IMG/VR virus record: IMGVR_UViG_3300031963_000172
Span: 1-57,897 of that record
Reading direction: 5' to 3' (one strand)
Length of the DNA: 57,897 nt
Source: a virus
Below the pieces are notes generated by a model. It saw nothing but the letters and a program-made list of their open reading frames with translations. It searched no databases and was not told the origin of the DNA. The position numbers were made by a program, and so were the translations under genes. Each line of letters starts with the position of its first letter. Position 1 is the stretch's first letter. Shown here in pieces: positions 6,333-31,850 of the stretch.

Positions 6333-7652
6333 TCATATTTTTTCACCCGTTTTATCAGCGGTACCTTTCAATTTACTTGATATTTTATTTAAATAACTCT
6401 TGATTTTATCTTTATAGATCTGTTTAGCAGTAATATTGTTTGGCTCTGTTGGCGCACGATCACCCCAATAAATTTTTTGTGTAAAATACTTATCTCCAAA
6501 TCTTTCCCTCAATTCCTTGGTTCTTATTACGAATGTATCTTCTGGTCCCTTATTTTGTATTATACCCAATGTAAATGCGTCTTTTAATCTAAATCCCTTC
6601 ATCTTTAATCCGGCGATTACACCTACGGGTTTACCTGTATCCGGATCAATAGGTCGATCAACATCGTCTAAAAATCTCAAATCGGTTCTATCTGCATCAA
6701 TTACTTTATAACCACGATAATATTCTGGTAATTCATCAAATATTGCAGAAATATTACCGCCAGCCTTCAAATATTTTTCACATTCTATATTGTTTTGTAA
6801 AGTTTCTTTTCTTGAAAAAGTCATATGTGGTTTTGAAGGATCTTCAAGACTTTGCATTGCCCATTTAAACACGGCTGTATAGTCATAAAATTTAACATCT
6901 GGATTTGCAGATTTCCAACTTTCCAATTTTTTATGAAAATCAAGATCGCTCGTACCGTTTAATCTAACCGATAACTTTAAATTGTATTTATTAGCCACTT
7001 TTTTCAAAAACTCCATTTCAATTTGTAATCTTTCAATGAAGTCTTCAGGACGCATTGGATTCAATATTCTACCACGTTTACCTTCGGGTCCGGGTCTACC
7101 TTTGCCATAAAATCTATCTATAATTTTTGGATCTATAGGAATATTTTTCATCTCATCAGATGTCAATTTGTCACCAAACAACCAACGAGTTTTTCTAGTT
7201 CTTGCTGCTAATTTTGCTTTTAGATATGCGGGGTTACCAGCAAAATTCAAACAACCAGCGTTACATTCTGGACTTTTCTTTGGACACACTTCATGACCTG
7301 ATGAATCAGAAGGAGCCAAATATAAAATTGCAGTCAAATATCCTTTGTCATCTAAGAAAGACTTCAGTGTTTTTGGATCGTTTAATACACTCAACAGTTT
7401 TAATCTTCCTTGAGTGTCTCGGGCAATATTCTTCATTAATTCAGCCAACTCAAAACTAATAGGCTCCTTTTTGTTCGCTTCGGTCAAACATATCTTCAAA
7501 TTGTTATCGGTGTCATTTATAGCTTCATATAGAGATTGATTTACGCAATGTTTACATTTACATACAAATTGATCTATTGGGATAATACTGTCAGCAGGTA
7601 GACCCATTCCTTCGTACATTTTAACTTCAATTAGCAAATCGATTAATTTCAT
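6333..7652 (-). CDS. Gp88-like (DUF7227-type) protein with a predicted capsid-targeting leader
   Basis: 439 residues. The core YLAPSDSSGHEVCPKKSPEC, followed by NAGCLNFAG and RTRKTRWLFGD, and later LSVRLNGTSDLDFHKKL and FYDYTAVFKWA, match the phage 'gene product 88' family, whose biochemical function is unknown to me. The conserved Cys cluster (C-x6-C-x3-C) suggests metal or Fe-S binding. An extra N-terminal CKCKHC cluster lies near residue 32. The start MKLIDLLIE^V fits the [L/I]-x-E leader of proteins that gp21 cleaves, so it may be packaged into the head. Its ATG overlaps the stop of the upstream small gene by 4 nt. Confidence 0.65.
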   Translation of the reverse strand: MKLIDLLIEVKMYEGMGLPADSIIPIDQFVCKCKHCVNQSLYEAINDTDNNLKICLTEANKKEPISFELAELMKNIARDTQGRLKLLSVLNDPKTLKSFLDDKGYLTAILYLAPSDSSGHEVCPKKSPECNAGCLNFAGNPAYLKAKLAARTRKTRWLFGDKLTSDEMKNIPIDPKIIDRFYGKGRPGPEGKRGRILNPMRPEDFIERLQIEMEFLKKVANKYNLKLSVRLNGTSDLDFHKKLESWKSANPDVKFYDYTAVFKWAMQSLEDPSKPHMTFSRKETLQNNIECEKYLKAGGNISAIFDELPEYYRGYKVIDADRTDLRFLDDVDRPIDPDTGKPVGVIAGLKMKGFRLKDAFTLGIIQNKGPEDTFVIRTKELRERFGDKYFTQKIYWGDRAPTEPNNITAKQIYKDKIKSYLNKISSKLKGTADKTGEKI

Positions 7653-12207: not shown

Positions 12208-12416
12208 GAGTAATGCCTTTGGTAAGACAATATCATCCAAGTATTGTTAACACAGATTTGGATGTATATAAGATAAAAGATAGAGTAATGGCCGCGCCTA
12301 TAAATAATCATCCAGATCCATATCAGGTAATTGATAGACTTGGTATAAATCAAATTAACCCAACTAAGATAAAAACAGTGGTTTATAATTCCAAGGGTCT
12401 TTTTTACATAATATAA
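12204..12416 (+). CDS. Small unknown protein coupled to the cyclase gene
   Basis: 70 residues, start MRVMPLVRQYHPSIVNTDL. Its ATG overlaps the cyclase stop codon (ATGA), the usual sign of translational coupling. It is basic, has no membrane segment and matches no family I know. The coding sequence ends just before the promoter of the Mom-like gene. Confidence 0.45.
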   Translation: MRVMPLVRQYHPSIVNTDLDVYKIKDRVMAAPINNHPDPYQVIDRLGINQINPTKIKTVVYNSKGLFYII

Positions 12417-12419
12417 ATC

Positions 12420-12447
12420 TTGACAGGTAGAGTTATATTGTTATAAT
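12420..12447 (+). promoter_or_regulatory. Consensus sigma70 promoter of the Mom-like gene
   Basis: TTGACA at 12420-12425 and TATAAT at 12442-12447 with a 16-bp spacer, both boxes perfect. The expected start of transcription (+1, seven bases after the end of the -10 box) falls on the A of the ATG at 12454, so the transcript would be leaderless. This is the strongest host-type promoter seen in the window. Confidence 0.8.
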
Positions 12448-12453
12448 GAAATA

Positions 12454-13227
12454 ATGTCGGAGTATTTTAACCCCTCATTAATTTACCTCAAAAGCATCAA
12501 TAAGAATGTTGCAAAAACTCTTATTGAAAAGAACCACTATACTCACAAGTGGTCACTTTGTACTGTAGCTTATGGAGTTTATTACAAAGAGTATGTCGAA
12601 AGTACTTTCTTTGGGGGTTTTAACGAACGCCTGATAGGTGTATTAGTATATGGAAATGCCGTGGGTAGAAATGCAAGTACCAGCATATCTTGTCTACTTA
12701 CTAACAATAATGTGTTGGAATTAACACGGTTGTGGATTGCAGATGGTTATGGTAAAAATATAGAGAGTTATTGCATAGCTGAAAGTTTTAGACTATTAAA
12801 CAGAGAATACCCACACATTAAATGTATTCTCAGTTATGCAGATAGTGAAGCTGGACACGCTGGAACAATATATCAAGCAACTGGATTTCTATATCAAGGA
12901 GACAACTATGTGGATATAGCAATAATGCCTAACTATAGTGTTAGTTTAATTGGTCCGAATCAATATGAGTGGATACATAGTAGAAGTGTATATGCTAGAT
13001 GGAAAACACACAGTGTAGATAAATTAAAAGAACGTATTGGTAGAACATTTTGGCGTAAACGTGAAAGTGGTAAACATCGTTACGTCAAGTTTATTAGCAA
13101 CAAGATAGAAAATAAGAAACTAGTTAAATCTCTAAAACATAAAGTTCTACCTTACCCCAAAGATACTTCGTTCAAAGAAGAAGTGCAAGAAATCATTGTA
13201 ACATCTACCAACGAATTTTTCGAATAA
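12454..13227 (+). CDS. Mom-like DNA modification protein (GNAT fold)
   Basis: 257 residues. Diagnostic stretches are IEKNHYTHKWSL at 24-35, VLELTRLWIADGYGKNIESY at 87-106 and SYADSEAGHAGTIYQATGFL near residue 130, followed by YQGD. These match the Mu Mom family, a GNAT-like group that converts adenine in phage DNA to a carbamoylmethyl derivative and so protects it from restriction. The C-terminal ~100 residues are basic and suit DNA binding. The gene has its own consensus promoter, which implies early expression by host RNA polymerase. It stops one base before the convergent endonuclease gene's stop codon. The exact modified base here is inference. Confidence 0.75.
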   Translation: MSEYFNPSLIYLKSINKNVAKTLIEKNHYTHKWSLCTVAYGVYYKEYVESTFFGGFNERLIGVLVYGNAVGRNASTSISCLLTNNNVLELTRLWIADGYGKNIESYCIAESFRLLNREYPHIKCILSYADSEAGHAGTIYQATGFLYQGDNYVDIAIMPNYSVSLIGPNQYEWIHSRSVYARWKTHSVDKLKERIGRTFWRKRESGKHRYVKFISNKIENKKLVKSLKHKVLPYPKDTSFKEEVQEIIVTSTNEFFE

Positions 13228-14081: not shown

Positions 14082-15908
14082 TTATACGGTATCGAGATCG
14101 CCGATAATAACTTTTCCATAGAACTCTGGGCGCACTACCTTCTTAGCGTAGCGGGTCATTACACCTCTACGTGGAGTGAAGTTCACTGGATCATAGACCA
14201 ATGGAGTTTGGATTAGTGGGATATATGGAGCATATACAGCACCGGTTTCTAGGAAGTTGTTTCCACGGAAACCAACCAATACAACGTTATCGGTCATATA
14301 TGGGTTCTTGTAAACTTGGAAGCGAGAAGCAAAGCTACCAACGCGGCTTACGCCCATTGCGAACTTAGCTTGATCACCATCAGTGTTTACTACATATCCT
14401 GGAATTGATTCCAAGATGGTTGCTACGTCTGGACTTACGACCAAGAAGTTAGCACCACCACGTAGGGTCAATTTTTGGATTGTGTTAGATACCTTTTGAA
14501 TCTTGTTACCAAGAGTTTGGAACCAAGTGCTCTTTACGTAAGCAGTACGGTTTGGTGAGCTGTTTGCGTTACGTGTGAAGACTGCTTCACCAGTAGTTGC
14601 ATTCAATCCCTTGCTGAATTCAACACCGATTTGGGCGGACCAAGCTTCGGTAGTTACGCCTTCAACGGCTTCGTTCAACATTTCTAGGATTTCTAGATCG
14701 ATTTCCATAGATACATATTCACTCAATAGAGCAGTCAATTCTGCTTCTGCGTCGATAGAGTGATATGCGTTCAAGTCTTGAGCAAGTTCTGGGGTCCATA
14801 CTGCTTTCAACTTACGTGTCTTAGCAACGATTGGTTCGCTGTTTAGTACCAAGTTAACTTCTGGGATACTGATATCGGTATCAATGCTTTGTGTAGCAAC
14901 GTTACCTGAAGTACCAGAACCTTCACCTGCGGTCTTACCAGCTTCGAAGTCACCACGTAGGTTATCGGTAGGTTGTAGGCTATAGATCAACTTAACTTTG
15001 GTTGATGGTCCAGCGAATGCACTGTTAGATGCAGATACGATGTATACAGATTGATAGAATGGATTACTCAAACTACCAGTGTTAATTGCTTTGGCATAGG
15101 TGTTCAATACTAAACCGCTGCTTCTTAGAGAAGTTGGTACGGTTGAACCTGATATCAAGTTGAATGAACGTACTGCATTCAAGTCAACATTGTACATATA
15201 TCCTTGACCAGCCACAGGAGTAGTATTGTCATCGTGATTCAAGATAACCTTGAATAATTTCTTAGCTACTACAGAAGCACTCAATTCAGCAGCAAATTGT
15301 ACATCATTCCAAGAAGCTGTTTGAATTGTGTTACCATTATTGGTGGCACCAGCGGTTAATGTAAGAGCAATAGCAGAGCTACTTACTGGACGGATTGAAT
15401 ATGCATAAGCACCTTGTCCGTATAGACCACGTACAGCGTCATCGGTAGAACCCAACTTCTTGCCTGTGCCACCGAACAAACTATCGTTCAATTGCTTACC
15501 AGCACGGGTAGTTACAGAACTACCGTTGTTCAAGTTACGCAAATCTTGGCCTGGAGCGGTTGTACCATACTTGAAGTCTAGATAGAAAATTAGACCTGAT
15601 GGTAGGTTCATTGGTTGAACGCTTACGAATTCCTTCGCAGCGATTTCAGCAAACACACGACGAACCAATGGAAGAGCTACGCCAGCCCATTGTTCGGAAC
15701 TGGTGGAGGTACCAGTTGTGGTTGCTTCGTCAAGCAATTGCTTTGCTTGGTTTTCCAATAGGATTGACATATGTGCCTTTTCGACACCAGCGCAACCTTC
15801 AAGAAGGCCTGTCTTTTCCCATTTTGATTGTAATCCACGTGTTTCAGCCATCAATTTGGCTTGTGGATTCATATTGTTTGTCAATAGACTTTTTACATCC
15901 ATACTCAT
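14082..15908 (-). CDS. 23: Major capsid protein gp23
   Basis: 608 residues, longer than T4 gp23 (521). The N-terminus (MSMDVKSLLTNNMNPQAKLM) and the block WAGVALPLVRRVFAEIAAKE, followed by FVSVQPMNLPSGLIFYLDF, are typical of gp23. LLDE^A at residues 58-62 matches the [L/I]-x-E cleavage rule of gp21 at nearly the same place as in T4 (after residue 65), so the mature protein probably begins at Ala62. The C-terminal part (FRGNNFLETGAVYAPYIPLI, MTRYAKKVVRPEFYGKV) is also conserved. A purine-rich AGAAAG lies upstream of the start and a strong terminator downstream. Confidence 0.95.
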   Translation of the reverse strand: MSMDVKSLLTNNMNPQAKLMAETRGLQSKWEKTGLLEGCAGVEKAHMSILLENQAKQLLDEATTTGTSTSSEQWAGVALPLVRRVFAEIAAKEFVSVQPMNLPSGLIFYLDFKYGTTAPGQDLRNLNNGSSVTTRAGKQLNDSLFGGTGKKLGSTDDAVRGLYGQGAYAYSIRPVSSSAIALTLTAGATNNGNTIQTASWNDVQFAAELSASVVAKKLFKVILNHDDNTTPVAGQGYMYNVDLNAVRSFNLISGSTVPTSLRSSGLVLNTYAKAINTGSLSNPFYQSVYIVSASNSAFAGPSTKVKLIYSLQPTDNLRGDFEAGKTAGEGSGTSGNVATQSIDTDISIPEVNLVLNSEPIVAKTRKLKAVWTPELAQDLNAYHSIDAEAELTALLSEYVSMEIDLEILEMLNEAVEGVTTEAWSAQIGVEFSKGLNATTGEAVFTRNANSSPNRTAYVKSTWFQTLGNKIQKVSNTIQKLTLRGGANFLVVSPDVATILESIPGYVVNTDGDQAKFAMGVSRVGSFASRFQVYKNPYMTDNVVLVGFRGNNFLETGAVYAPYIPLIQTPLVYDPVNFTPRRGVMTRYAKKVVRPEFYGKVIIGDLDTV

Positions 15909-15961: not shown

Positions 15962-17035
15962 TTACTTCTTGATTCCCGCGAGTTTTTGGAATCTTGAAGC
16001 CATCTCGTCAGCTTGAGGTTCTACAATGGTAGACACAGGCTTCGTTGATGATACTTGTTTGCTTGCCAAACCTTCGGTGATAGCTTGAGCAGTTGTATTT
16101 GTCTTTTTCTTGACAACTGATGCACCGGAATTAAATGATTCGGCTAAAACTGTATATGCCAACTTGACTTCACGAATGTTCTTGGTCAAGTCGAAAGTGT
16201 TAATGATCTTAAGTTTTTGATCTTCGGTCAAACTCTTACCCTTGAACAACTTATTGGTATAAAGCAACTTAGCATTCAATAGGTTGGTTTCAGATAGAAC
16301 GCCCTTCATAAACTTAACTGTACTTAGAGCTTCTGATAGTTGTTTCTTAAGAGATTCGTTTTCTTCATTGATAGCAACCAAAGCTTCTGCCATTTCGTCA
16401 GGAGTAACTTCTCCTTCAGATGGAGATGGAACTTGTGCTGGAGCAGCTGGATCAACTGGTGCTGGAGCAGGTGCTGGAGCAGCTGCTGGATCAGCTGAAT
16501 GAACTGGTGCTGGAGCTGGCATAGCGGGATCTTCGGCTTCTAATTCTGCAAGAAGTTCGTCTAAATTAATAGATTCCTCAACGTCGTCACCTTTTTCAGA
16601 AGAAGCTTCTGAAGAAGCTTCTGTTTCTTCATCCATTTCAGTTTCCAATTCGGCTAGAATTTCATCTAGTTCTTCGCTTGTTACTTCAGTACCATCTTCA
16701 ACTGCGGTTTCTTCTTCAAGTTTTACGTCGAATTCTTGCTTTCCAGCAGGAGTTGTATTTTTATTAGCAGCAGGAGATGGTTTAGTTGGATGTTGCTTAG
16801 AAGCAATGTTACTATCATCTTTACCGATATTAGAAGATGCAAGCTTTTCTTCAATCTTACCTTCTTTATCGTCGTCATCGTGTGTTTCCTCTGCCATTTC
16901 TTCTTTGAGTTTGTCAGCAAACATTTCTTTCATGCTGTTTGCAAAACTTTCTTCAAGGAAGGTTTTTGCATTTGCCAATGCTGTTTCACGAACAGCCTTT
17001 GCATCCGCAATACTTTCTTTTAATAGATCGCTCAT
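15962..17035 (-). CDS. 22: Prohead scaffold core protein gp22
   Basis: 357 residues. The position directly before gp23, the highly acidic Glu/Asp-rich helical composition and the C-terminal MASRFQKLAGIKK are typical of gp22 scaffold proteins. The middle holds an Ala-Pro stretch (DPAAAPAPAPAPVDPAAPA). gp22 forms the prohead core and is degraded by gp21; several [L/I]-x-E sites occur. GAAAGG lies 10-15 nt before the ATG as a Shine-Dalgarno sequence. T4 gp22 is shorter (269 residues). Confidence 0.85.
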   Translation of the reverse strand: MSDLLKESIADAKAVRETALANAKTFLEESFANSMKEMFADKLKEEMAEETHDDDDKEGKIEEKLASSNIGKDDSNIASKQHPTKPSPAANKNTTPAGKQEFDVKLEEETAVEDGTEVTSEELDEILAELETEMDEETEASSEASSEKGDDVEESINLDELLAELEAEDPAMPAPAPVHSADPAAAPAPAPAPVDPAAPAQVPSPSEGEVTPDEMAEALVAINEENESLKKQLSEALSTVKFMKGVLSETNLLNAKLLYTNKLFKGKSLTEDQKLKIINTFDLTKNIREVKLAYTVLAESFNSGASVVKKKTNTTAQAITEGLASKQVSSTKPVSTIVEPQADEMASRFQKLAGIKK

Positions 17036-17784: not shown

Positions 17785-18232
17785 TTTTAATCCCAATTTT
17801 TCTAAACATATGAATTCTACCAAAGATAATTATAAGTTCATAAAACGAACTGGCGATGAAAATGCTTATTCAAATCCAGATGTACGTGAAATGAATAATA
17901 GTTATAACAAGTACAAGTCTCCAAAGTTAGTTAACTTTATCAATAATGATAATTTTGAAGAAGAAAAAATGTATAAACTTGAAGATATAGATAACCCAAA
18001 TGGCTGGAATTTTACAGAAATAGATCTATTGGGTGAAATGGACTTTCGTATAGATGACGAGTACAGAATGTTCTCAGAAATAGAAATTCCTTCTTTGGAT
18101 ATGATCAACGAAAAGAGAAAAACCTTCGTCTATAAAACAGACGAAGGTTATGTACTAGAAGCAAATAGAAAATATGTTTTTGAATCGTTTGATGAAATGA
18201 TCAAATTTATTGATTCTGTGCCGATGGATTGA
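17774..18232 (+). CDS. Unknown acidic protein
   Basis: 152 residues, start MAYNFNPNFSKHMNSTKDNY, acidic in the second half (DNFEEEKMYKLEDIDNPNGW). No family recognised. It overlaps the DUF3008-like gene by 11 nt and so is likely co-expressed. Its 3' end overlaps the convergent helical core gene by 26 nt, and an intrinsic terminator for that opposite strand lies inside its coding sequence. Confidence 0.55.
   Translation: MAYNFNPNFSKHMNSTKDNYKFIKRTGDENAYSNPDVREMNNSYNKYKSPKLVNFINNDNFEEEKMYKLEDIDNPNGWNFTEIDLLGEMDFRIDDEYRMFSEIEIPSLDMINEKRKTFVYKTDEGYVLEANRKYVFESFDEMIKFIDSVPMD
18113..18149 (-). terminator. Intrinsic terminator embedded in the opposite-strand gene
   Basis: An 11-bp perfect stem (AACCTTCGTCT at 18121-18131 with its complement at 18139-18149) and a 7-nt loop. 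Read on the minus strand it is followed by TTTTTCTCTTTTC. It would end the prohead-gene transcript about 60 nt past the stop at 18207. Confidence 0.7.
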
Positions 18233-18644
18233 TAGTAACGTTACTTGTTTGTGACCGTGGAGCTTCAGTCATTGAGTCCGCAATTTCAAAATAACGTTCC
18301 AATCTCATACCAACTTGTTCGTATAACATTTCAAGTTGTTTTTCAATTTCTTTCATCTTTTGAGCTTCTTCGTACATTTTAGAAGCATCTCTCTTGATTT
18401 CCTTCATATCACGTTCAACCATTTTGGCTTGCATCCAATCGCCACATTCTTTGATGGCATATCGTTCTGCTAAATTAACAGCCTCCATAATTTTTTGTGC
18501 GGTTTCATATACGCAATCAGCTTTTAATCCTTTGCGATATTCGTTGTAAGATTTAATAGCCCCAACCATTTTTGATTTTTCTTCTTTGGTAAGAGAGCTA
18601 TAAGCTACTTCAGTAGAGTTTTCTAGTAAATGTTTTAATTTCAT
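18207..18644 (-). CDS. Helical prohead core-type protein with predicted capsid-targeting leader
   Basis: 145 residues, mostly charged helix (VERDMKEIKRDASKMYEEAQ, then KMKEIEKQLEMLYEQ), with a disordered tail. The start MKLKHLLE^N satisfies the gp21 rule (L6-L7-E8). It follows the protease gene and precedes the scaffold, where small core proteins (such as T4 gp67, gp68) are encoded. A role in the prohead core is therefore likely. It could also be a packaged internal protein. Its ATG is 5 nt behind TATTTAT. Confidence 0.55.
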   Translation of the reverse strand: MKLKHLLENSTEVAYSSLTKEEKSKMVGAIKSYNEYRKGLKADCVYETAQKIMEAVNLAERYAIKECGDWMQAKMVERDMKEIKRDASKMYEEAQKMKEIEKQLEMLYEQVGMRLERYFEIADSMTEAPRSQTSNVTINPSAQNQ

Positions 18645-18656: not shown

Positions 18657-19262
18657 TTATAGTTCTGATAGAATGTTGTGGATAATTCTTTCAACATTAT
18701 TATATGGGTTAATAATTGTTCTGTGTTGATCAACGCCTTCGTTGATTTTACCTTGTGGATACATAAAAGCACCTTGGGTACTTGGATTGCTTACAAAATC
18801 AAACGCGATTAGATCAAAGTCATCTTGTACAACATCTGCTCCTTCTCTCATATCTTTCTTTACACTACCCAATCCACGACTACTGATGCCCAAAAGAATG
18901 CCTGATTGCAACAAATCTTTTAATATGTTACCACTTGGTGTAGGTAGAATTTCGACTGTACCAACCAAATCTTTATTTTCCCATCCCATATCTACGATGT
19001 TGTGACTTACATTTTTTAAATTAACAACAGACGATTCTGGGTGATCCAATTCACCCATAGCACGACGTTGTTTAACGAAATTTTGCATATACGCTTCAGC
19101 TTCTCTCTTTAGTACATCTTCTGGATATACACGGCCGTTTTGGTTTTTTGCATCAGCACGTTGTAATACGCCGGTTACGTATAATTTTCCATCTTTAAGA
19201 GATTCATTTAAAGATGTTTTTTTGAATTCAAATGGAAGAATATCTATCAGTACTTGTTTCAT
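18657..19262 (-). CDS. 21: Prohead core protease gp21
   Basis: 201 residues, close to T4 gp21 (212). Signature stretches are NQNGRVYPEDVLKREAEAYM, the catalytic His block MGELDHPESS (H74) and the catalytic Ser block GILLGISSRGLGSV (S127/S128), followed by FDLIAFDFVSNPSTQGA. gp21 matures the prohead by cutting after [L/I]-x-E. This is the enzyme expected to process gp23 and the leader-bearing proteins in this window. Confidence 0.92.
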   Translation of the reverse strand: MKQVLIDILPFEFKKTSLNESLKDGKLYVTGVLQRADAKNQNGRVYPEDVLKREAEAYMQNFVKQRRAMGELDHPESSVVNLKNVSHNIVDMGWENKDLVGTVEILPTPSGNILKDLLQSGILLGISSRGLGSVKKDMREGADVVQDDFDLIAFDFVSNPSTQGAFMYPQGKINEGVDQHRTIINPYNNVERIIHNILSEL

Positions 19263-23136: not shown

Positions 23137-24726
23137 TTACAACAACCAAGTTAAACTTTCTTTTTTGTCATTAACGGTGAAATCCATAGTTTTGTGGTGA
23201 TCAGGTACAGCACTCACTTGTTTTGGAATTGAAATTTGACTTGTTACTTTTGATATTTTTGAAACAATAGCCTTATTATAAGCTATTTGTTCGTTTCTAA
23301 GTTTCAAAGCAGTTTCACGTACCCACAAACCAATTCCAATTGCCATAACCAAATCGTCATTGTATCCCTTCATAGCTTCTGCTTTTGGTCCGTTCCAAAT
23401 GAATACATTCAGTTCCTCATATAGTCTTTTGGATTTCATTATAACTTGTTTTTGTCTAAAAAATAATTCCAAGTTACTTATAATTAAAGGTCTATTTTTA
23501 CTGGTTGTAGCAAATCCAGGAATTAACTTTTTATCAGCTGTATTTAATTTATTGGAATATGTTTTTTCTACGTCAACCACGGTCAAATCTGACGCACTAT
23601 AAAACGTATTTTGATAATCCCTATCAATAATTTGTTGTAATGAAGCCCATCCTATATTGTTATTTTCCACCACCAACAAAGCATTGTTGTATTCTGTAGC
23701 AACACTGACCAATAAATTGCCATAATCTTTTGTAGTTAATTGGCCTTTATATTCAGCCACTTGTTCCATTGTTTCTATATCTATAACGTGAAATGCACTA
23801 AAATCTCCACCATCTCCTCTAGCGCAGTCAGCGGTCAATATATAATTTTTACTATAATTGGGATAATCCCAAATCCATAGGTCTTGATTATTACCACGTT
23901 TTTCAACAGGATCTTTTAGATAGGTTTGTTTGTAAAACTCAAGAACATCTACACTTACAACTTGATTGCCAGATGTACTAAAGTCACAATCACATTCTTG
24001 TGCTGCCCCTTTTACTCCTGATAATTCTGTCTGTTTATCTCTCCAAGATTGATCACGTTCTGGGTGTAGATGCCACGGCAATCTAATTGTCTTAAAATTA
24101 TTCTTACCTTCCTCTGCTTCAAGCCACGTTTTATGGAAAAAGTTACCAACGCCATTCGGGGTACTCAATATAATAGCTCGACCACCCGTAGACAGTGTAT
24201 ATTGAGAAGATAGCCAGATTTCCTCAATACCATCAATAAATGCAGCTTCGTCAATGATTAGTAATGATAGTGCAGATGAACGGCCAGCGGTACCCGCAGA
24301 TGATACTGCTTTGATTTGAGAACCATTCTTTAAACGTAATGATAATCTATTATCTTCTACACACGGAACTTTCAACCAACTCGGTAAATTGTCATTAGCA
24401 AATCTTACCTTAGTAACAATTTCCTTTGCTGTTTCTTGTGTAATACTAATACAAAGAATATTCTTGTCGTTGTGAAATGTCATTAACCACAAACTATAAG
24501 CAGCTGTAAGAGTACTAATACCCATCTGACGACTTTTAAGAACAATGTTTAATTGATTATCAACAAAGTTTTGTAAAGCTTCTTCTTGGAATGGATAAAG
24601 TTCAAATCCAACAGTACCTCTAATAGGATGTTGTATCTTAACATACTTCTTCATGAAGTATATAGGATCCTCAATACACTTCTTATACTCCTGCTTTATT
24701 ATTTCTCTTAAATTTAGCTGACTCAT
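23137..24726 (-). CDS. 17: Terminase large subunit gp17
   Basis: 529 residues (T4: 610). The ATPase half has YPFQEEAL (adenine-binding Q), the P-loop region VLKSRQMGIST (62-72) and Walker B LLIIDEAAFID. The nuclease half has YILTADCARGDGGDFSAFHV with its metal-binding Asp, and the later acidic block YNDDLVMAIGIGLW. Compared with T4 SRQLGKTT the P-loop Lys is replaced by Ile, as in other GIS-type terminases, where a Lys before SRQ may serve. It pumps DNA into the prohead. Overlaps the upstream gene by 44 nt. Confidence 0.95.
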   Translation of the reverse strand: MSQLNLREIIKQEYKKCIEDPIYFMKKYVKIQHPIRGTVGFELYPFQEEALQNFVDNQLNIVLKSRQMGISTLTAAYSLWLMTFHNDKNILCISITQETAKEIVTKVRFANDNLPSWLKVPCVEDNRLSLRLKNGSQIKAVSSAGTAGRSSALSLLIIDEAAFIDGIEEIWLSSQYTLSTGGRAIILSTPNGVGNFFHKTWLEAEEGKNNFKTIRLPWHLHPERDQSWRDKQTELSGVKGAAQECDCDFSTSGNQVVSVDVLEFYKQTYLKDPVEKRGNNQDLWIWDYPNYSKNYILTADCARGDGGDFSAFHVIDIETMEQVAEYKGQLTTKDYGNLLVSVATEYNNALLVVENNNIGWASLQQIIDRDYQNTFYSASDLTVVDVEKTYSNKLNTADKKLIPGFATTSKNRPLIISNLELFFRQKQVIMKSKRLYEELNVFIWNGPKAEAMKGYNDDLVMAIGIGLWVRETALKLRNEQIAYNKAIVSKISKVTSQISIPKQVSAVPDHHKTMDFTVNDKKESLTWLL

Positions 24727-25330
24727 ATTTCTCTTCGTACTCTTTTATTTTAAGATTCAATTCTTCCAATCGAACGTCAATGACACCTATATCCTTTGTC
24801 AAATCTTCAAATATTTTATTGTAATCTATATTACCATCCCACTTTTCAAACGATCCATCTTCCTCAAGAAATGTAACATCTTTATCTTTATTTTCTTCGC
24901 AGAACTTTTTACTTTCTTCAAACTTTTTCTTGTAATCTTCTAAAATACTACGTTCGTTTTTAAGATCCTGTAGTTCGTTGTAAACTTCAAACATTCCCAT
25001 CATTTTTAGTTCAGTTTGAAAATTGATAAAACAATCATAACAATATCCTGTTTTTGGCCATACTCGATCATCCAAATAGTTACCCCAACGAACATCCATA
25101 TTACAACATTTACAACGCTGTTCATTAATAATAGTAGCACGTTTTGGTACTCTTCGTTTGCTTCCATTTTTCCAAACCCATTTACGACCTTGACTATCCT
25201 CCCATTCGTCACCTTCTTTGCGTTTATTGTTCTCCAAATTGGCATCATAGCCAACTTGTACGAATGGACGTTCGCCCGATAAATAATCTTTTACAATTGA
25301 TAAATTGCTTTTACCTGATGCTTTCTTCAT
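24683..25330 (-). CDS. Zinc-finger/coiled-coil protein before the terminase; candidate small terminase
   Basis: 215 residues. The middle holds a treble-clef-like Cys pair set: CKCCNMDVRWGNY, then TGYCYDCFINFQ. A preceding basic patch (RKWVWKNGSKRRVPKRA) and a following long coiled coil (~115-210) complete the protein. A similar protein stands before gp17 in other T4-like phages. Position suggests gp16, the small terminase, whose T4 form is also coiled-coil and oligomeric, but T4 gp16 lacks this zinc finger, so the assignment is uncertain. Its 3' end overlaps gp17 by 44 nt, so the two are likely translated together. Confidence 0.45.
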   Translation of the reverse strand: MKKASGKSNLSIVKDYLSGERPFVQVGYDANLENNKRKEGDEWEDSQGRKWVWKNGSKRRVPKRATIINEQRCKCCNMDVRWGNYLDDRVWPKTGYCYDCFINFQTELKMMGMFEVYNELQDLKNERSILEDYKKKFEESKKFCEENKDKDVTFLEEDGSFEKWDGNIDYNKIFEDLTKDIGVIDVRLEELNLKIKEYEEKYESAKFKRNNKAGV

Positions 25331-25348
25331 AACAAATACGTATTTATT

Positions 25349-26386
25349 TTATTTCTTAAACTTACTGTCGAGACCGTTTATAATAAAACTTCCTGTAATT
25401 TTAAATGGATCTTTACTAATACTACTATCTCTTACAACTATACCTTCGTGTTTATCTAGATCTCCGATTTTACTGGTAGCATTTTTTAATATTTCATCTC
25501 CCAATTTAATTGTGGTTAAATAAACAATAGTATCATTAACTATTTTATTTACATCTTGATCTGGAAAATCTGGAAAATCTTGACTGATATTTTTACTATC
25601 TACCGCTTTCAAAAATTGTTTACGTGTAATAAGAGGAGTAGTAAACTTTAATTCTTTTAACCAATCCGTCAAAGACTGGGTTACAGCTTTACCCATAGGA
25701 TACAATGTAACTTGTTGCGTCAAAACACTTGCTAGGTTTGGTTCCGATTTGAAAGTAGTGTCAATACTACCCAACACCTTAAAACCACTCTTCATAGCAA
25801 CCTTATTTAATTTGTTTATATAAGACTGCATTGCAGTTTTATCATATGGTATTTCAACAGCTACTCTGGATTTAACACTTCCATCTTTACCAAAAGTCTT
25901 TGGCTTAATTTCTTTTAATCCGTGAATAGCTAAAAAGTTCCATTTATATCCAACTACATTCGTTTGACCCTCTACATATTCAATATTGAATAGTATATTA
26001 GGATTATCTAATAATCCAAGTGTTTTCAATTCGGATCTTGTGGATGGAATTGCAGCATCAAAAATATTAATTACCTTTGTACCAATACCAATAAATCCGT
26101 GGCCTGGTTCAAATCTACTTGACAAATCTTCAGGTCTCATTCCTTTAATATCAAGTGGTTTTGCTGATCCACGATCCATTACGAACTGACCGTTTACCAT
26201 ACGAATACTAGCGTTTACGCCGTCAATTTTAACACTACCACCACCTTGTTTTAAAGATTTAACCGATTTTGCAAATACATCTACCAATTTAGCTCCTGTA
26301 TTTGCAAAATCAAATGGATGTGCCATATGACCTCCGGCACCACCTTCACTAATTACTTCGTTCAAAATGTTATTTAGTCTTATCAT
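25349..26386 (-). CDS. ATP-dependent nucleic acid ligase-like nucleotidyltransferase with capsid-targeting leader
   Basis: 345 residues. Ligase-superfamily motifs appear in order: motif I SVKIDGVNASIRM (Lys at residue 53), a motif III-like ILFNIEYVEG (~131-140), motif IV HEGIVVRD (313-320) and motif V-like PFKITGSF (Lys 329). This predicts a covalent Lys-AMP step. Whether it seals RNA or DNA is not clear. No OB-fold domain follows motif V, so it may be a minimal or divergent enzyme. The leader MIRLNNILNE^V obeys the gp21 rule, so it may be packaged in the head. It overlaps the upstream reductase-like gene by 17 nt. Confidence 0.65.
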   Translation of the reverse strand: MIRLNNILNEVISEGGAGGHMAHPFDFANTGAKLVDVFAKSVKSLKQGGGSVKIDGVNASIRMVNGQFVMDRGSAKPLDIKGMRPEDLSSRFEPGHGFIGIGTKVINIFDAAIPSTRSELKTLGLLDNPNILFNIEYVEGQTNVVGYKWNFLAIHGLKEIKPKTFGKDGSVKSRVAVEIPYDKTAMQSYINKLNKVAMKSGFKVLGSIDTTFKSEPNLASVLTQQVTLYPMGKAVTQSLTDWLKELKFTTPLITRKQFLKAVDSKNISQDFPDFPDQDVNKIVNDTIVYLTTIKLGDEILKNATSKIGDLDKHEGIVVRDSSISKDPFKITGSFIINGLDSKFKK

Positions 26387-27143
26387 ATGGTTTTAAAAAT
26401 GTTTTATCAAATACAGGAATTGCTTTTTTGTAAGAACTCTTAGTTTCGTCTAAACTATTATCAGTAAATTGCCAGTTCCAAAATAATTGGTCTGGTGTTT
26501 TGAATCCAAAAAACTGAAGTACTTCTTTTTGTGTTTGGGTAACATCTTTTCCATTCCAATTTTGACCAGTAGCAATAAATCCTGAATCTATATCTTTTAC
26601 TATATTACTTTCACCCAAAGTAGAATGTCTGTTCTCAATCCAAGTCAATCTTTCAATCAATTTTTGATAAAAACCGTTGGCTTGTCCCCATCTCACACTA
26701 GCAAAAAAGACTACACAGTCACTTTCAAATAATTCTTTACTTATTTTCCATAATTCGTCGTTCTTATTATTAATACTAGCCCAACAACGATGTTCTCCTG
26801 TTGGGTTTTTTTCTTTATCTTTTAAAACTGAATCTTTTGTACCACAATGATTTCCCCATTTTGACGATACATTGCCCTCACACGGAACTATATTTAATTT
26901 GGTAGTATCTATCAATGATACTTTTTCTTTACCTAATAGTTCTTGTATTTTAATTGCTAATTGTGTACTCTTAGCAATATCGTCTTTGTGACCACTCCAT
27001 CTATTACTGGTAGTTAACAATAGTACTTTGTTCTTGGTACGTAAATAATCTATAGTCTTCTTGTATTTGCGGGCATAAAGATCCATATCTTGCTCGCTTT
27101 GAGGAAGTTTGGCTTCTAATAATAAATCGTTTAAACTGATCAT
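26370..27143 (-). CDS. NAD(P)H-dependent FMN reductase-like flavoprotein with capsid-targeting leader
   Basis: 257 residues from the ATG at 27143; a longer frame exists upstream but that part overlaps the previous gene and lacks the leader pattern. A flavodoxin-like fold is indicated by KVLLLTTSNRWSGHKDDIAK, which should hold the FMN phosphate loop, and by the helix-strand ELFESDCVVFFASVRWGQAN, then KLIERLTWIENRHSTLGE. Such enzymes reduce flavin or quinones with NAD(P)H. Relatives occur in cyanophages. The leader MISLNDLLLE^A fits gp21 cleavage. The 25 nt around its start are 24/25 identical to the start of the next gene upstream. Confidence 0.65.
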   Translation of the reverse strand: MISLNDLLLEAKLPQSEQDMDLYARKYKKTIDYLRTKNKVLLLTTSNRWSGHKDDIAKSTQLAIKIQELLGKEKVSLIDTTKLNIVPCEGNVSSKWGNHCGTKDSVLKDKEKNPTGEHRCWASINNKNDELWKISKELFESDCVVFFASVRWGQANGFYQKLIERLTWIENRHSTLGESNIVKDIDSGFIATGQNWNGKDVTQTQKEVLQFFGFKTPDQLFWNWQFTDNSLDETKSSYKKAIPVFDKTFLKPYDKTK

Positions 27144-27153
27144 TTTGATAATT
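27129..27153 (-). repeat. Leader-cassette repeat, copy at the reductase-like start
   Basis: AATTATCAAAATGATCAG followed by TTTAAAC covers 10 nt before and 15 nt after the ATG. It differs at one base from 27670-27694. Confidence 0.85.
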
Positions 27154-27162
27154 GGTCTAAAA

Positions 27163-27684
27163 TTATTTGTTTGTTTTTTTAACGCAGTTGGGATATTTGT
27201 TACCAAACATTGTCTTCATACCTTTTTGTGTATATCCCTTCCAACATTTTTCCTCTATATTATTTTCAGCTACCCCATATCCAGATCCATATGGAGACGA
27301 TTTACCAGATTCTGGATCAGATGTTTCTTTATTTAGTCTTATTGTTTTTGCTTTAGATGCTTCTTTACGATTTATAGCATAATCCAAAGCGCTTTTCAAC
27401 CTACTTTTAACATTTGGATCTTTTGCATTTTGATAAGCTGCTCTAACTCTCTGATGTATAAGATTTATAATTTGAGATTGTCTCTTGTGACTTTTTGATT
27501 TAAAACCACTGCTAGCTAGTGTATCTTTAATGTCTTGTGCGGTTCTAAATTTTACCCGAACTGTATCCTTTGGATTTTCATCGGTATATAATCTTCTATC
27601 AGATCCTTTTGGCTTTTTACCAGTTCCAACTTTTGGATCAGCCTCAGATAAAACTTCATTTAAAATGTTGTTTAAACTAATCAT
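27163..27684 (-). CDS. Small basic DNA-binding-like internal protein with capsid-targeting leader
   Basis: 173 residues, Lys/Arg-rich. The leader MISLNNILNE^V, with a second L-S-E site four residues later, resembles T4 internal proteins. The middle (KRQSQIINLIHQRVRAAYQN, then SALDYAINRKEASKAK) is helical and basic. The end has ENNIEEKCWKGYTQKGMKTM followed by FGNKYPNCVK, a short Cys motif that recurs at the C-terminus of many phage proteins. Packaging with the DNA is inferred from the leader and charge. No enzyme motif is visible. Confidence 0.6.
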   Translation of the reverse strand: MISLNNILNEVLSEADPKVGTGKKPKGSDRRLYTDENPKDTVRVKFRTAQDIKDTLASSGFKSKSHKRQSQIINLIHQRVRAAYQNAKDPNVKSRLKSALDYAINRKEASKAKTIRLNKETSDPESGKSSPYGSGYGVAENNIEEKCWKGYTQKGMKTMFGNKYPNCVKKTNK

Positions 27685-27694
27685 TTTGATAATT
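27670..27694 (-). repeat. Leader-cassette repeat, copy at the basic-protein start
   Basis: 24 of 25 bases identical to 27129-27153, including 10 bases before the ATG. Suggests duplication of the start and leader as a unit. Confidence 0.85.
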
Positions 27695-27845
27695 CGTCTA
27701 ATTTACTTTGCATTGTCATACCACGAATTACTTCAGGCGTACCACCATTGTCTCTATTAAAATATAATTTTAATAAAGATGGGTCAACTGCTTCTTTAAC
27801 CTGTGGTTTGGTTAAATCTTCAATAATTTGAGTCAAACGTATCAT
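27681..27845 (-). CDS. 54-residue peptide with capsid-targeting leader
   Basis: Starts MIRLTQIIE^D, again ending in I-x-E, then a hydrophilic remainder with EVIRGMTMQSKLDELSK at the end. Its TGA overlaps the next gene's ATG (ATGA), and its own ATG is 5 nt behind TATTTAT, which makes it the first gene of the leader-bearing cluster. After cleavage about 45 residues would remain in the capsid. No family recognised. Confidence 0.6.
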   Translation of the reverse strand: MIRLTQIIEDLTKPQVKEAVDPSLLKLYFNRDNGGTPEVIRGMTMQSKLDELSK

Positions 27846-27920: not shown

Positions 27921-30900
27921 TTATACGTTAAAAGCTGCGCCCGTTGGGAGTATGTTGAAATCGAGGATAATGAATTCAGCAGTACGGGTTGGTTGGATAA
28001 AGATCTGACCATATAGAATATTTCTATCAATCAAGTCAGGAGTATTGTTTGTATCATCCATCTTGACTTGGAATGCGTAGATACCGTTACGTTGTTGTAC
28101 TGATTCCAAATATGGAGTTACAATACTCAAGAAACGATTTCTTGTAGAAGCAACGTTTTGTTCGAATACCAAGTAGTTGCTTGAACTTGCGATAAACTTC
28201 TTCAAGTTGATCAACAAACGACGTACATTGATACGATCCAAAGCACTTGGGGCGATTTGTAGAGTCTTTTGACCCCATACACAAATACCTTGACCAGGGA
28301 ACGCTGCGATTGGATTTACACGACCTTCATACAAGGTATCACGTTCACTGTGAGTTACACGATCAAGTACTTGTACTGCGGTTGGAATACCACCACGGTT
28401 TAGACCGGCTGGAGCGTACCATTCAGCAGCGGAGTTATCGTTAGCAGCGTAAACTGCTGGCAATACTACTGAAGGAGGAACACTAATAATCTTGTTGGTA
28501 TTAGTATCTAGAATCTTAACCCAAGGATAATAAGTACCTACATAGTTACTATCAATTGTAGCAACAGTATTAATTGCTGCATCAATCAATCCTACAGTTT
28601 GATTGCTTGCTGGGAACACTACGTTATCCATAATGTAGAAACAATCTTGACGAGTTTCACACATATCAATTACCAATTCGGTAACATAACTGTGTTGTTC
28701 ACGGAAGATACCTGGAGTTACAATCAAGTTAATATCAAATTCATCAGGATTACCGATTGCAGCAATTGCTTGCTTATAAGCGATACTACCTGGGCTATTG
28801 ATATTTGTACAATCTAAACCTTGTGTATTACCAGCTGTAATATTACCACCTACATTGATTGGAATTGCTGGCCATTGACCTTCAAATCCACCTTGGAATC
28901 CAAGTACAAACTTACGTAGTTTGACATATGTAGATTCATTTACAGCGTCGTAAACACTTGGAATACTACCACTCAATGTTGGAGATAGTAGTGATCCAGT
29001 ACTCACGTATGTGCCTTGAGCATAGAATTTACTATTTGTTGTACCCCATACCTTATCTTCTAAATCGAAGTCGATATTAGTACCATTGCTATCAGATGCA
29101 CCGTAGTATGGTAGTGGTTTGAAGTATTGTTTGGTGTTATTGTCTACACCTACGCCAAATGAAGATGTTGGGTATAGAGCTTGAATTTCACTGTCAGTGC
29201 CTGGAACACTTCCAAATACTGTACCAGATGGATACTTACCAGGACCTAGACCATAGATACTTGCCTTACTGTATTGTATAGCAGGTACATAGTTACTTGC
29301 AGTACTATCAATTGGGGTACTATATGATTCGAATCCGTATGGTACGCAACTTACTGGGTAAGAAACGTCACTGGCTTCAATTCTGATATATTTGCTCAAT
29401 GTGGTGAAATCACCAAATTGAATCAATTTACCAGCATAAGTGATATATGCATATCTGTTACCAATTCTACGAGCAACATAATTTGCAGACTCTGGATCCA
29501 AATTCAAGTTTTGGTAGATTTCCAAATACTTTGGCTTCTTATCAGTATCACTATAAGCACGTACTGCTAGTGTGAAACTACCCCAGTCACTGCCTGGAAC
29601 AGTACCAGCCAACTTAACGTTGCTAATTTCAATCTTAAACTTAGTGTTACTTAGTGTACCATCGCTCAAGGTGTGAACTTTGAACAACTTGAACTTAGTT
29701 GGTTGAGCGGCTACATCAGCACTACCTTTGAATGGAGCAATCTTTTGACTGTAGATCCAAGGGGTAGAAGCATTAGTAATGCTGAATTGACTATCGCCGT
29801 TATTCAAATCAGTACTATATTGATCAACGAACTTTAGAGGTTCACCGACAATAGAACTTCCTGATAGATTACTTGTACCTACTTGTAGTCTCCATCCATA
29901 AGCACTTGTCTTTTCAGCTACGAACTTCTTGATACTATCTTCGAATAGAACGTAGTTATAAGCAGCTTCAACTTTTTGACCAGCAACTTGTTTGTTAGGA
30001 TTACCAACGGTTGGATCTACACCGAATACTTCTTTGATATAGTTATTATCATTTTCATTCAAGCTAAAGTCATAGTAACCATATGTACCGGCACTGGTAC
30101 CGCCAGCTGGATTTGTATAGCTATACTTCAATGCCAAGTTGTAAACATTTTCATTAGGATTAATTACACCCTTATATGGGAATGTGCTACTTGTTAGTTG
30201 GCTTAATGTTGAGGTATTGAAACCAAATACTTGATAATCACTGGTGAATTGTGATGAAGCATTTTGAGTATTTGCTAATACTGACAAGATCAACTTTTGA
30301 CGACCTGTTAGTACTGGATTACATTGATCTGCACTTGCATTATCTTGACTTGTAAATCCACCGGTATATTTACCGAAATCACCACTTACTACACCTCTTA
30401 CTTGTAGACCAGCTACACAAGTTCCAACACCACGTAGTGAATGGAAACTACCACTTTGAAGTGTTAGTGTTGTAGCTGCTTCCACATTGAAGTTTGTTAG
30501 ATTGTAAGCGATATTACCATTGAAGTAAGATGAACTTACTAGATCAACAGTTGTTGTGCTTTCATCGAAAGCGGTAGCAATTGCTGTTTCGGCATCAATA
30601 TTTGAACCTTGTAGACTTGAAGTTAACAAGAAGAATTTAGTACCGACTGGTTTTGCATTACCATTGGCAAGAGTTGCAGTACTGAATTTACGTACCAATA
30701 ATCCAGAAGAAACTGAACCGATATCAACTGTTTTATTGGCGTACAAGATACTACCACTCAACTTACCTACACCATCAACGTCATCTGCGGTTACGCCACT
30801 TGTTAAAGTTGCGGATCCAAATTTAACATTCAATGACCCACTGATTGTCATTGTTGAAATATCAATACGTTGTGTCAACTGAATAGAAGAACTTAATCCT

Positions 30901-31850
30901 CCGCCAATGAAATCTTGGTTATTCAAACTTGCAGTTGCAAACGATGTATTTTGATTTGCGGCTTTAGCAAATACTAATCCGAATGTATTTGGAGCATTAA
31001 AAGAAGATGTCAAATAACTATTGGAAGTACTGGTATCAAATGTTAATTTTAGCTTATTTGATGATGCGCCGCCAACTGTAACACTACCATTTATATTTGA
31101 TTTTTCAAAATCAAATGCGGCCAATGAGTGGTCGATGGAACTACCTAGTTTTGCTACTTTACCACCTCTAGCTACTACTGAACTGCTAAACAATTCATAA
31201 TGTCTTGTAGAAACTACTTTAAATACTTTACCCAAACTGGATGAAGTTGACAAAGAAGCTGAAAGTGAATTAATTCCAACAACACTTCCAACTGTAGCTA
31301 AGAAAGAAGCAATTTCAGCGGTTGTTGCTCTTGTAAATGTAGCAGATCCTGTTATACCACTACCAACTGAACCTTTAATTGCAGCTGAACCGGTAATACT
31401 AATAGGAGTACTAGTTTGTTGATATATTACATTTGATGTATAATCTGTAGTATCAATATACATAAATGAAGCGGTTGTGATAGCTCCTTTATCAGCGTCT
31501 CTGTCCCAGATACCTGGTTGAGCATATACAATCAATGGATTCTTTTGCCAGTAACCAGTTAGACCACCTACACGAACAACGGTAACGATACCTTGTTGTA
31601 GTAGATATTCTTTGGCTGTGTATGGTCCATAATACACACCATCAGCGACACCGAATCTTGTTTCTAATTCAGCTACGTCGGTTATTGTATTTGGAAAAAA
31701 CGCTGGTCCATCAGCGAATGGAGCTATAATTGCTCCTCCAATGTTTGCTACTCCTTGAGCCAGACCGGAGAGGTCATTTTCACGTGTGAATACACCTGGG
31801 CTTACTATATTTTGTGTTGGGGCGAATCTACCGCCTTCTGTTATTGGCAT
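27921..31850 (-). CDS. 18: Tail sheath protein gp18, greatly enlarged
   Basis: 1309 residues, about twice T4 gp18 (659). The N-terminus is typical: NIVSPGVFTRENDLSGL, then ANIGGAIIAPFADGPAFFPN, ELETRFGVADGVYYGPYTAK and VTVVRVGGLTGYWQKNPLIV. The C-terminal ~230 residues are also typical (APAGLNRGGIPTAVQVLDRV, LYEGRVNPIAAFPGQGICVW, NVRRLLINLKKFIASSSNYL). Between ~170 and ~1000 lie Ser/Thr/Gly-rich beta domains with no clear relatives, which probably decorate the outside of the sheath. A Shine-Dalgarno AAAGGA lies 10 nt before the ATG and a TATTTAT about 35 nt upstream. Confidence 0.92.
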   Translation of the reverse strand: MPITEGGRFAPTQNIVSPGVFTRENDLSGLAQGVANIGGAIIAPFADGPAFFPNTITDVAELETRFGVADGVYYGPYTAKEYLLQQGIVTVVRVGGLTGYWQKNPLIVYAQPGIWDRDADKGAITTASFMYIDTTDYTSNVIYQQTSTPISITGSAAIKGSVGSGITGSATFTRATTAEIASFLATVGSVVGINSLSASLSTSSSLGKVFKVVSTRHYELFSSSVVARGGKVAKLGSSIDHSLAAFDFEKSNINGSVTVGGASSNKLKLTFDTSTSNSYLTSSFNAPNTFGLVFAKAANQNTSFATASLNNQDFIGGGLSSSIQLTQRIDISTMTISGSLNVKFGSATLTSGVTADDVDGVGKLSGSILYANKTVDIGSVSSGLLVRKFSTATLANGNAKPVGTKFFLLTSSLQGSNIDAETAIATAFDESTTTVDLVSSSYFNGNIAYNLTNFNVEAATTLTLQSGSFHSLRGVGTCVAGLQVRGVVSGDFGKYTGGFTSQDNASADQCNPVLTGRQKLILSVLANTQNASSQFTSDYQVFGFNTSTLSQLTSSTFPYKGVINPNENVYNLALKYSYTNPAGGTSAGTYGYYDFSLNENDNNYIKEVFGVDPTVGNPNKQVAGQKVEAAYNYVLFEDSIKKFVAEKTSAYGWRLQVGTSNLSGSSIVGEPLKFVDQYSTDLNNGDSQFSITNASTPWIYSQKIAPFKGSADVAAQPTKFKLFKVHTLSDGTLSNTKFKIEISNVKLAGTVPGSDWGSFTLAVRAYSDTDKKPKYLEIYQNLNLDPESANYVARRIGNRYAYITYAGKLIQFGDFTTLSKYIRIEASDVSYPVSCVPYGFESYSTPIDSTASNYVPAIQYSKASIYGLGPGKYPSGTVFGSVPGTDSEIQALYPTSSFGVGVDNNTKQYFKPLPYYGASDSNGTNIDFDLEDKVWGTTNSKFYAQGTYVSTGSLLSPTLSGSIPSVYDAVNESTYVKLRKFVLGFQGGFEGQWPAIPINVGGNITAGNTQGLDCTNINSPGSIAYKQAIAAIGNPDEFDINLIVTPGIFREQHSYVTELVIDMCETRQDCFYIMDNVVFPASNQTVGLIDAAINTVATIDSNYVGTYYPWVKILDTNTNKIISVPPSVVLPAVYAANDNSAAEWYAPAGLNRGGIPTAVQVLDRVTHSERDTLYEGRVNPIAAFPGQGICVWGQKTLQIAPSALDRINVRRLLINLKKFIASSSNYLVFEQNVASTRNRFLSIVTPYLESVQQRNGIYAFQVKMDDTNNTPDLIDRNILYGQIFIQPTRTAEFIILDFNILPTGAAFNV

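Follow-up and report, generated by a model that had tools for sequence, protein, structure and literature searches.

Alt of bacteriophage T4 is an ADP-ribosyltransferase which bears the short N-terminal sequence MELITELFDE and is both packaged and ejected. Within the ten-residue leader of the T4 internal protein IPIII, residues 4 and 7 serve targeting and residues 8 and 10 processing, the protease gp21 cutting after L/I-x-E (PMC9026906). It has been proposed that leaders of this type enable T4-like phages to take diverse proteins into the head (PMC9026906, PMC3012670). In phage P1, an N-terminal signal of DarB suffices to place a foreign protein in the head (PMC9024508), and in phages phiKZ and SPN3US a gp21-related protease cuts head proteins after Glu, with redundant sites in some propeptides of the ejection proteins (PMC5694885, PMC9026906). 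In the open literature, which was covered in part, no capsid-targeting sequences were found for cyanophages or environmental T4 relatives, nor any report of such leaders beyond T4 and its close relatives, phage P1 and the giant phages.

The stretch of DNA analysed here (the window) is the IMG/VR virus record IMGVR_UViG_3300031963_000172 at its full length of 57,897 nt; head and tail proteins of T4 type are encoded on its minus strand. Its source is an uncultured freshwater relative of T4 from a distant freshwater clade; the terminase is 55.7 and 51.6% identical to those of the nearest cultured phages, Microcystis phage Mel-JY01 and Flavobacterium phage immuto, respectively. A preliminary description of this DNA reported four adjacent genes with T4-style leaders, and these ORFs (P1 to P4, Table 1) do lie on the minus strand where it placed them. 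All four belong to the set, but the set is larger, as a scan of all window ORFs picked up two more leader genes, at 6333–7652 and 18207–18644. The reading preferred here, with a probability of about 0.86, is that the products of P1 to P4 and of these two genes carry T4-type capsid-targeting sequences which would direct their docking, cutting and packaging inside the head.

Table 1. Leader genes, head genes and flanking genes of the window (window coordinates; ^ marks a predicted cut).
Feature	Position	Strand	Length	N-terminus	Leader or propeptide	Basis or remark
P1	27681..27845	minus	54 aa	MIRLTQIIE^DL	~27819-27845	ORF
P2	27163..27684	minus	173 aa	MISLNNILNE^VLSE^AD	~27643-27684	ORF
P3	26370..27143	minus	257 aa	MISLNDLLLE^AK	~27114-27143	ORF; mechanical ORF opens at upstream TTG, ATG at 27143
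P4	25349..26386	minus	345 aa	MIRLNNILNE^VISE^GG	~26345-26386	ORF
GP88-family protein	6333..7652	minus	439 aa	MKLIDLLIE^V	~7626-7652	PF17338 GP88 4.9e-24
145-aa protein	18207..18644	minus	145 aa	MKLKHLLE^N	~18621-18644	Between protease and scaffold
Tail sheath	27921-31850	minus				Borders P1-P4 interval
Large terminase	23137-24726	minus				Other border of P1-P4 interval
gp21-like prohead protease (Peptidase S77)	18657..19262	minus				PF03420 2.4e-28; PHROG head maturation protease 5e-53
gp23-like major capsid protein	14082..15908	minus			~15726-15908	PF07068 2.1e-73
Putative gp22-like scaffold	15962..17035	minus				[LI]xE site density and position

The register of T4 IPIII, M-x2-phi-x2-phi-[LI]-x-E (positions 4 and 7 hydrophobic, L or I in position 8, E in position 10), was taken as an outside definition of the strict motif. 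Of the 51 genes called in the window three follow it exactly, P2, P3 and P4, where shuffling the N-termini gives 0.06 on average and reached three in none of 2000 shuffles. The [LI]xE ends at residue 9 in P1 and in the GP88-family protein and at residue 8 in the 145-aa protein; a relaxed register is present in seven window genes, where shuffles give 0.64. Calibrated on T4, the motif recovers IPII, IPIII, Alt and gp24, the strict form occurring 4 times (0.36 expected). The same form is found four times in Mel-JY01 (0.35 expected) and three times in immuto (0.33 expected), each of which has candidate leaders of its own (at 60276-60926, 62056-62718 and 96164-96964 in Mel-JY01, and at 103366-103806, 112261-112575 and 24569-24994 in immuto, a phage of Flavobacterium sp. 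LMO8). Among the related loci, 162 of 1119 distinct proteins show the relaxed motif against a shuffle mean of 12.8; since many of these matches are orthologs counted separately, counts by family and by genome are a fairer measure, and each related genome or fragment holds 2–9 matches where 0.1–1.4 are expected. Matches seen in a single genome (e.g., 16804 in G001) may be false, as so short a motif arises by chance in about one gene per genome. A looser pattern, [LI]xE anywhere within the first 17 residues, hardly exceeds background in several genomes, and for this reason the analysis was kept to the register-based pattern.

The machinery that such leaders would depend on is encoded in the window. 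A gp21 gene had been announced at the position given in Table 1, and profile matches together with the motifs GELDHP and GISSRG, which align with the His and Ser motifs of T4 gp21 (GELNHP and GVSSRG), bear this out. The capsid protein has a site, QLLDE61^A, that aligns with SFLTE65^A of T4 gp23, and every relative in the alignment has this Glu, immuto (IVSE) and Mel-JY01 (LISE) among them. The specificity of the protease in the window phage is assumed from this homology and from the capsid-protein site. The putative scaffold matches no family above the cut-off in Pfam and PHROG profile searches; it contains 4.8 [LI]xE per 100 aa, compared with 5.9 in T4 gp22, 0.8 in the terminase and 1.3 in the portal. 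From its place in the head gene cluster and its conserved [LI]xE, the product of 18207–18644 is likely a prohead core protein.

The leaders had been described as about ten residues ending in [L/I]-x-E. This holds for P3, whose only early site is E10^A, but in P1 the site falls at residue 9 (E9^D), and P2 and P4 each have a second one at residue 14 (E10^V and E14^A in P2, E10^V and E14^G in P4). Several features favor E14 in the latter two. In two relatives P2 has K10 instead of E10 while E14 is kept; in P4, E14 and GG15–16 are nearly invariant or invariant in the alignment of relatives; and a different protein, the 427-aa nucleotidyltransferase that replaces P4 in two related loci (L122 and L124), shares with P4 the block [LI]xE-GGAxGHxAHP[FY] (hhalign E=0.0003, probability 40%, 56% identity over 16 residues) and has the [LI]xE of this block as its only early site. 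The P1' residues at the E10 and E9 sites, V and D, differ from the A/S of the clade's capsid-protein site, and the V at E10 adds to the preference for E14. The predicted cut in P2 and P4 is thus as likely at E14 as at E10, or likelier. Sites in propeptides of gp21-type proteases can be redundant (PMC9026906), and by analogy both may be used.

Comparison with relatives suggests that the leader is a detachable and portable element. P3 has seven homologs in bacteria and archaea, 56–65% identical to it over the body, and the leader was seen in none of them, one being cut by a contig end; where their start is readable, they begin at or after the point at which the phage leader ends. In the phages, leaders occur on unrelated bodies: on a DnaJ-domain protein (PF00226) inserted between P3 and P4 in L018, on a Mom-family protein (PF25680) in G001, which also has a leaderless Mom paralog, on a 155-aa family ("VYRGV") and 200-aa basic proteins of relatives, and on a DUF6267 protein which replaces P4 in L130 and L138 and whose Pfam domain starts directly after the leader. 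The search of related phages that had been proposed, for a portable leader on otherwise unrelated proteins, was therefore positive. Leaders also move. In G001 (70560–71159) the P1 leader is joined directly to the P2 body, and between the window locus at 6333 and its counterparts in six related phages only residues 1–31/32 match (59–81% identity) while the remaining ORF differs, both differing bodies being distant GP88-family members where tested. In a single case (L252) an HNH-type gene took the original leader of P4, and the P4 body gained a new N-terminus, MIKISKLLVSLFE, with an [LI]xE. An intron at this insertion was considered and gave no Rfam match; as a GGAGGH segment lies on both sides, a free-standing insertion is more likely, and the example is supporting only.

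The cleavage motif is maintained through these changes. Among body-matched homologs, an [LI]xE by residue 18 is kept in 45/45 relatives of P4 and in 11/11 of P2; the site is also kept in 8/8 GP88 homologs, in 52/52 P3 homologs once start overcalls are allowed for, and at residues 6–9 in 34/34 relatives of the 145-aa protein. P3 of L125 reads LLLQE, so that the [LI]xE survives an indel. For P1, 20/22 relatives have it at residue 9 and one more is a start overcall (giving 21/22); the one true exception, L246, keeps the hydrophobic pattern with the [LI]xE absent. Leaderless P3 homologs, unrelated bodies, moving leaders and sites kept through shifts are four independent lines that argue for a detachable leader. 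In the predicted models, both built on shallow alignments and of low overall confidence, pLDDT is below 50 at leader residues 1–17 of P3 and 1–24 of P4.

The interval between tail sheath and terminase holds P1, P2, P3, P4 and a leaderless 215-aa gene in the window. Across the phages compared the arrangements are P1 P3 P4, P1 P2 P3 P4, P1 P3 DnaJ P4, P3 with a 990-aa or a 427-aa protein, and P3 alone. From these gene orders, the interval behaves as a cargo cassette in which leader-tagged bodies are exchanged and the leader is kept. Homing-type genes are present in the interval of some phages.

The proteins so tagged are diverse. P1, given before as a 54-residue peptide, does have this length, but its relatives measure 96 aa, and 42 internal codons are missing in frame from the gene in the window, which thus encodes an internally deleted form of the 96-aa protein. 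P2 had been called basic, and correctly so: its mature form would have a pI of ~10 and a net charge of +20, although this is weak support for packaging because 12 of the 47 window proteins longer than 100 aa exceed pI 9. Its C-terminal motif CWxGY...PNCV also occurs in cyanophage proteins. P3 itself has no Pfam match; one of its cellular homologs matches PF03358 below the family cut-off (E=0.0037, 17.3 bits against 24), and the best PDB matches in Foldseek are flavin reductases, azoreductases and NQO1 (E ~5e-4, with a model of mean pLDDT 58 and TM-scores of 0.3–0.5). Judging by the sub-threshold match of the homolog and by the fold of a low-confidence model, a flavodoxin-like FMN reductase is the probable identity of P3. 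In P4, K53-x-D55-G56, E136, E314-G315 and K329 are invariant in 21 sequences and were assigned by eye to the nucleotidyltransferase motifs KxDG, III, IV and V. The RNA ligase family PF09414 is hit in 13 of these 21 members at sub-threshold level only (best E=0.043; 12.5 bits for window P4, cut-off 27), and the best Foldseek match, T4 Rnl1, is not significant (E=0.011). The earlier label "ligase-like enzyme" is refined by these predicted motifs to a KxDG nucleotidyltransferase whose similarity to RNA ligases is weak, and P4 is here termed RNA-ligase-like and not an RNA ligase. No named phage with P3 or P4 was found by tblastn, and no P4 homologs were found in the seven genomes with the cellular P3 homologs, a negative that is uninformative. 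An ADP-ribosyltransferase identity was considered for the "VYRGV" proteins and for a Mel-JY01 leader protein ("RVWHLTT"); neither has a family match, the likeness being by eye only.

Other explanations of the N-termini deserve consideration. The leaders might bring their proteins to the prohead core to act in assembly or as part of the core itself, the proteins being degraded or gone before maturation and never delivered. The 145-aa protein fits such a role, since its gene sits within the head gene cluster beside protease and scaffold and its product has several [LI]xE sites, like a core protein. The bodies of P2 and P4, with 1.7 and 1.2 internal [LI]xE per 100 aa against the 4.8 of the scaffold, should in contrast survive the protease; moreover, the tagged bodies are enzyme-like, with homologs in cells in the case of P3, and can be exchanged from phage to phage, which sets them apart from essential core proteins. 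As an account of the whole set this explanation is unlikely. Less probable again is that the N-termini form a common docking helix which stays uncut and serves, for instance, a complex in the infected cell. Targeting and cutting are indeed separable in T4, where IPIII with D10 is targeted yet unprocessed (PMC9026906), but the Glu of [LI]xE is retained here despite indels and a substitution, which an uncut helix would not need, and the genome encodes a gp21-type protease with a matching site in its capsid protein.

Finally, since the genome is AT-rich, ordinary N-termini with many Met-Ile/Lys residues could resemble leaders by chance. Residues of this type are common in the window genome and shuffling does expect about one match per genome; the counts per genome, the pooled count and the strict count given above, together with conservation among orthologs and absence from the cellular homologs, exclude chance for practical purposes. 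Packaging through capsid-targeting leaders, which the preliminary description had put forward, is thus the reading on which register, protease, capsid-protein site, unrelated bodies, leaderless homologs, swapping and upkeep of the site all converge, as far as sequences can tell.

Under this packaging reading, the N-terminal 8–14 residues, with their hydrophobic positions 4 and 7 and terminal [LI]xE, would dock each protein on the prohead core during assembly. The phage's own gp21-type S77 protease would then cut after Glu (E9 in P1, E10 in P3, E10 and/or E14 in P2 and P4), and the mature protein would be freed within the head prior to DNA filling. The cassette between sheath and terminase would allow a small protein, a basic protein, a flavodoxin-like reductase, DnaJ and KxDG nucleotidyltransferases to be gained, lost or exchanged with the leader kept. 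Ejection of the tagged proteins into the host along with the DNA is reasonably probable, at a lower level of confidence than packaging. Any specific function of the cargo in the host is doubtful at best. One speculative picture is that of a pre-made kit, immediately active on entry, made of an RNA-repairing nucleotidyltransferase (acting, e.g., on tRNAs that anticodon nucleases of the host have cut) together with a redox enzyme and accessory proteins, its composition being swapped at one locus. No virion proteomics for the window phage or its close relatives, including immuto and Mel-JY01, was found in the open literature, to which the search was confined.

These results suggest that the head cargo of uncultured phages may be readable from sequence, with the ten-residue leader marking capsid-bound proteins. 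As enzymes and a chaperone-like protein are among those marked in this clade, the idea that enzymatic functions are delivered immediate-early can be put to a direct test, and the natural leaders and cut sites of the clade can be compared to study the T4 targeting code.

The mechanism is that of the known T4 capsid-targeting system; the clade, its cargo and the evidence for exchange are new. The window clade has the leader consensus M[IK]xLxx[IL]LxE, to be compared with MKTYQEFIAE in T4 IPIII. As in IPII and IPIII (IPI being more divergent), a ten-residue leader in the same register precedes unrelated mature bodies, and a gp21-family protease is encoded. Unlike the T4 internal proteins, which are only small basic proteins, the cargo here includes a flavodoxin-like reductase, a KxDG nucleotidyltransferase, DnaJ, the Mom family and GP88; some leaders of the window clade hold two tandem sites, and the freshwater clade is distant. 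Alt is likewise an enzyme with a short leader of this type, whereas no recognised ADP-ribosyltransferase is found among the window cargo. DarB of phage P1, from another phage group, shares an N-terminal packaging signal with the window proteins, but in the accessible part of the source it is described without a cleavage-site leader of such pattern. The propeptides of phiKZ and SPN3US differ in their motif (S/A-x-E or A-x-E) and are in most cases far longer than the leaders of the window.

The locus of P4, the RNA-ligase-like nucleotidyltransferase with a predicted capsid-targeting leader, is rearranged or occupied differently in related phages. In relative L252 (10188-11042 and 11026-12078) an HNH-type open reading frame is inserted into the P4 gene just past residue 20; P4's leader now heads this frame, the body of P4 starts with a new N-terminus that resembles a leader, and GGAGGH is found on either side of the insertion. 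Two other relatives carry a different nucleotidyltransferase-like protein in P4's place (see table), which has only the block E-GGAxGHxAHP[FY] in common with P4. The 990-aa protein of L130 contains a later LLITE^GG site (^, predicted cut) followed by a second nucleotidyltransferase-like domain, and is possibly a polyprotein.

Leader-bearing and other proteins in the window and related phages
Feature	Genome	Position	Strand	Match
Small leader protein, VYRGVNP or RVWHLTT after leader	L249	1531-1998		
Same	L249	10348-10818		
Same	L254	6519-6989		
Same	L294	3276-3926		
Same	L294	5056-5718		
Mom-family DNA-modification acyltransferase, leaderless	Window	12454-13227	+	PF25680, 4.2e-44
KTDG nucleotidyltransferase-like, 427 aa, in P4's place	L122	7217-8500		
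Same	L124	6504-7787		
990-aa protein, leader and DUF6267 domain	L130	10767-13739		

The VYRGVNP and RVWHLTT proteins appear by eye to resemble ADP-ribosyltransferases; a family match was sought for them and none was found. Relative G001 encodes both a leaderless Mom-family protein and a second, leader-bearing one (12018-12767).

Near the end of the basic protein P2 (window 27163-27684, residues 145-171) lies the motif CWxxYxxxGMKxxxGxxxPNCV, which recurs in cyanophage proteins and, in relative L254 (5877-6356), immediately follows a leader. In one near-identical contig (L003 744-2000) one continuous reading frame of 418 aa covers both P2 and the probably flavodoxin-like P3, representing either a real fusion or an assembly error.

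No clear Shine-Dalgarno sequence precedes the window start codons that were examined. A few bases 5' of several minus-strand start codons (window 27850, 18649, 6280, 31884, 21166 and 45317) the coding strand carries TATTTATA, possibly a late promoter or a Bacteroidota-type start signal; TATAAATA, counted in both orientations, occurs 23 times against 13 expected.

In T4 itself, the product of gene 61.1 (NC_000866 18966-19130), annotated only as hypothetical, begins with MKTFKEFIKE^D, a good capsid-targeting match.
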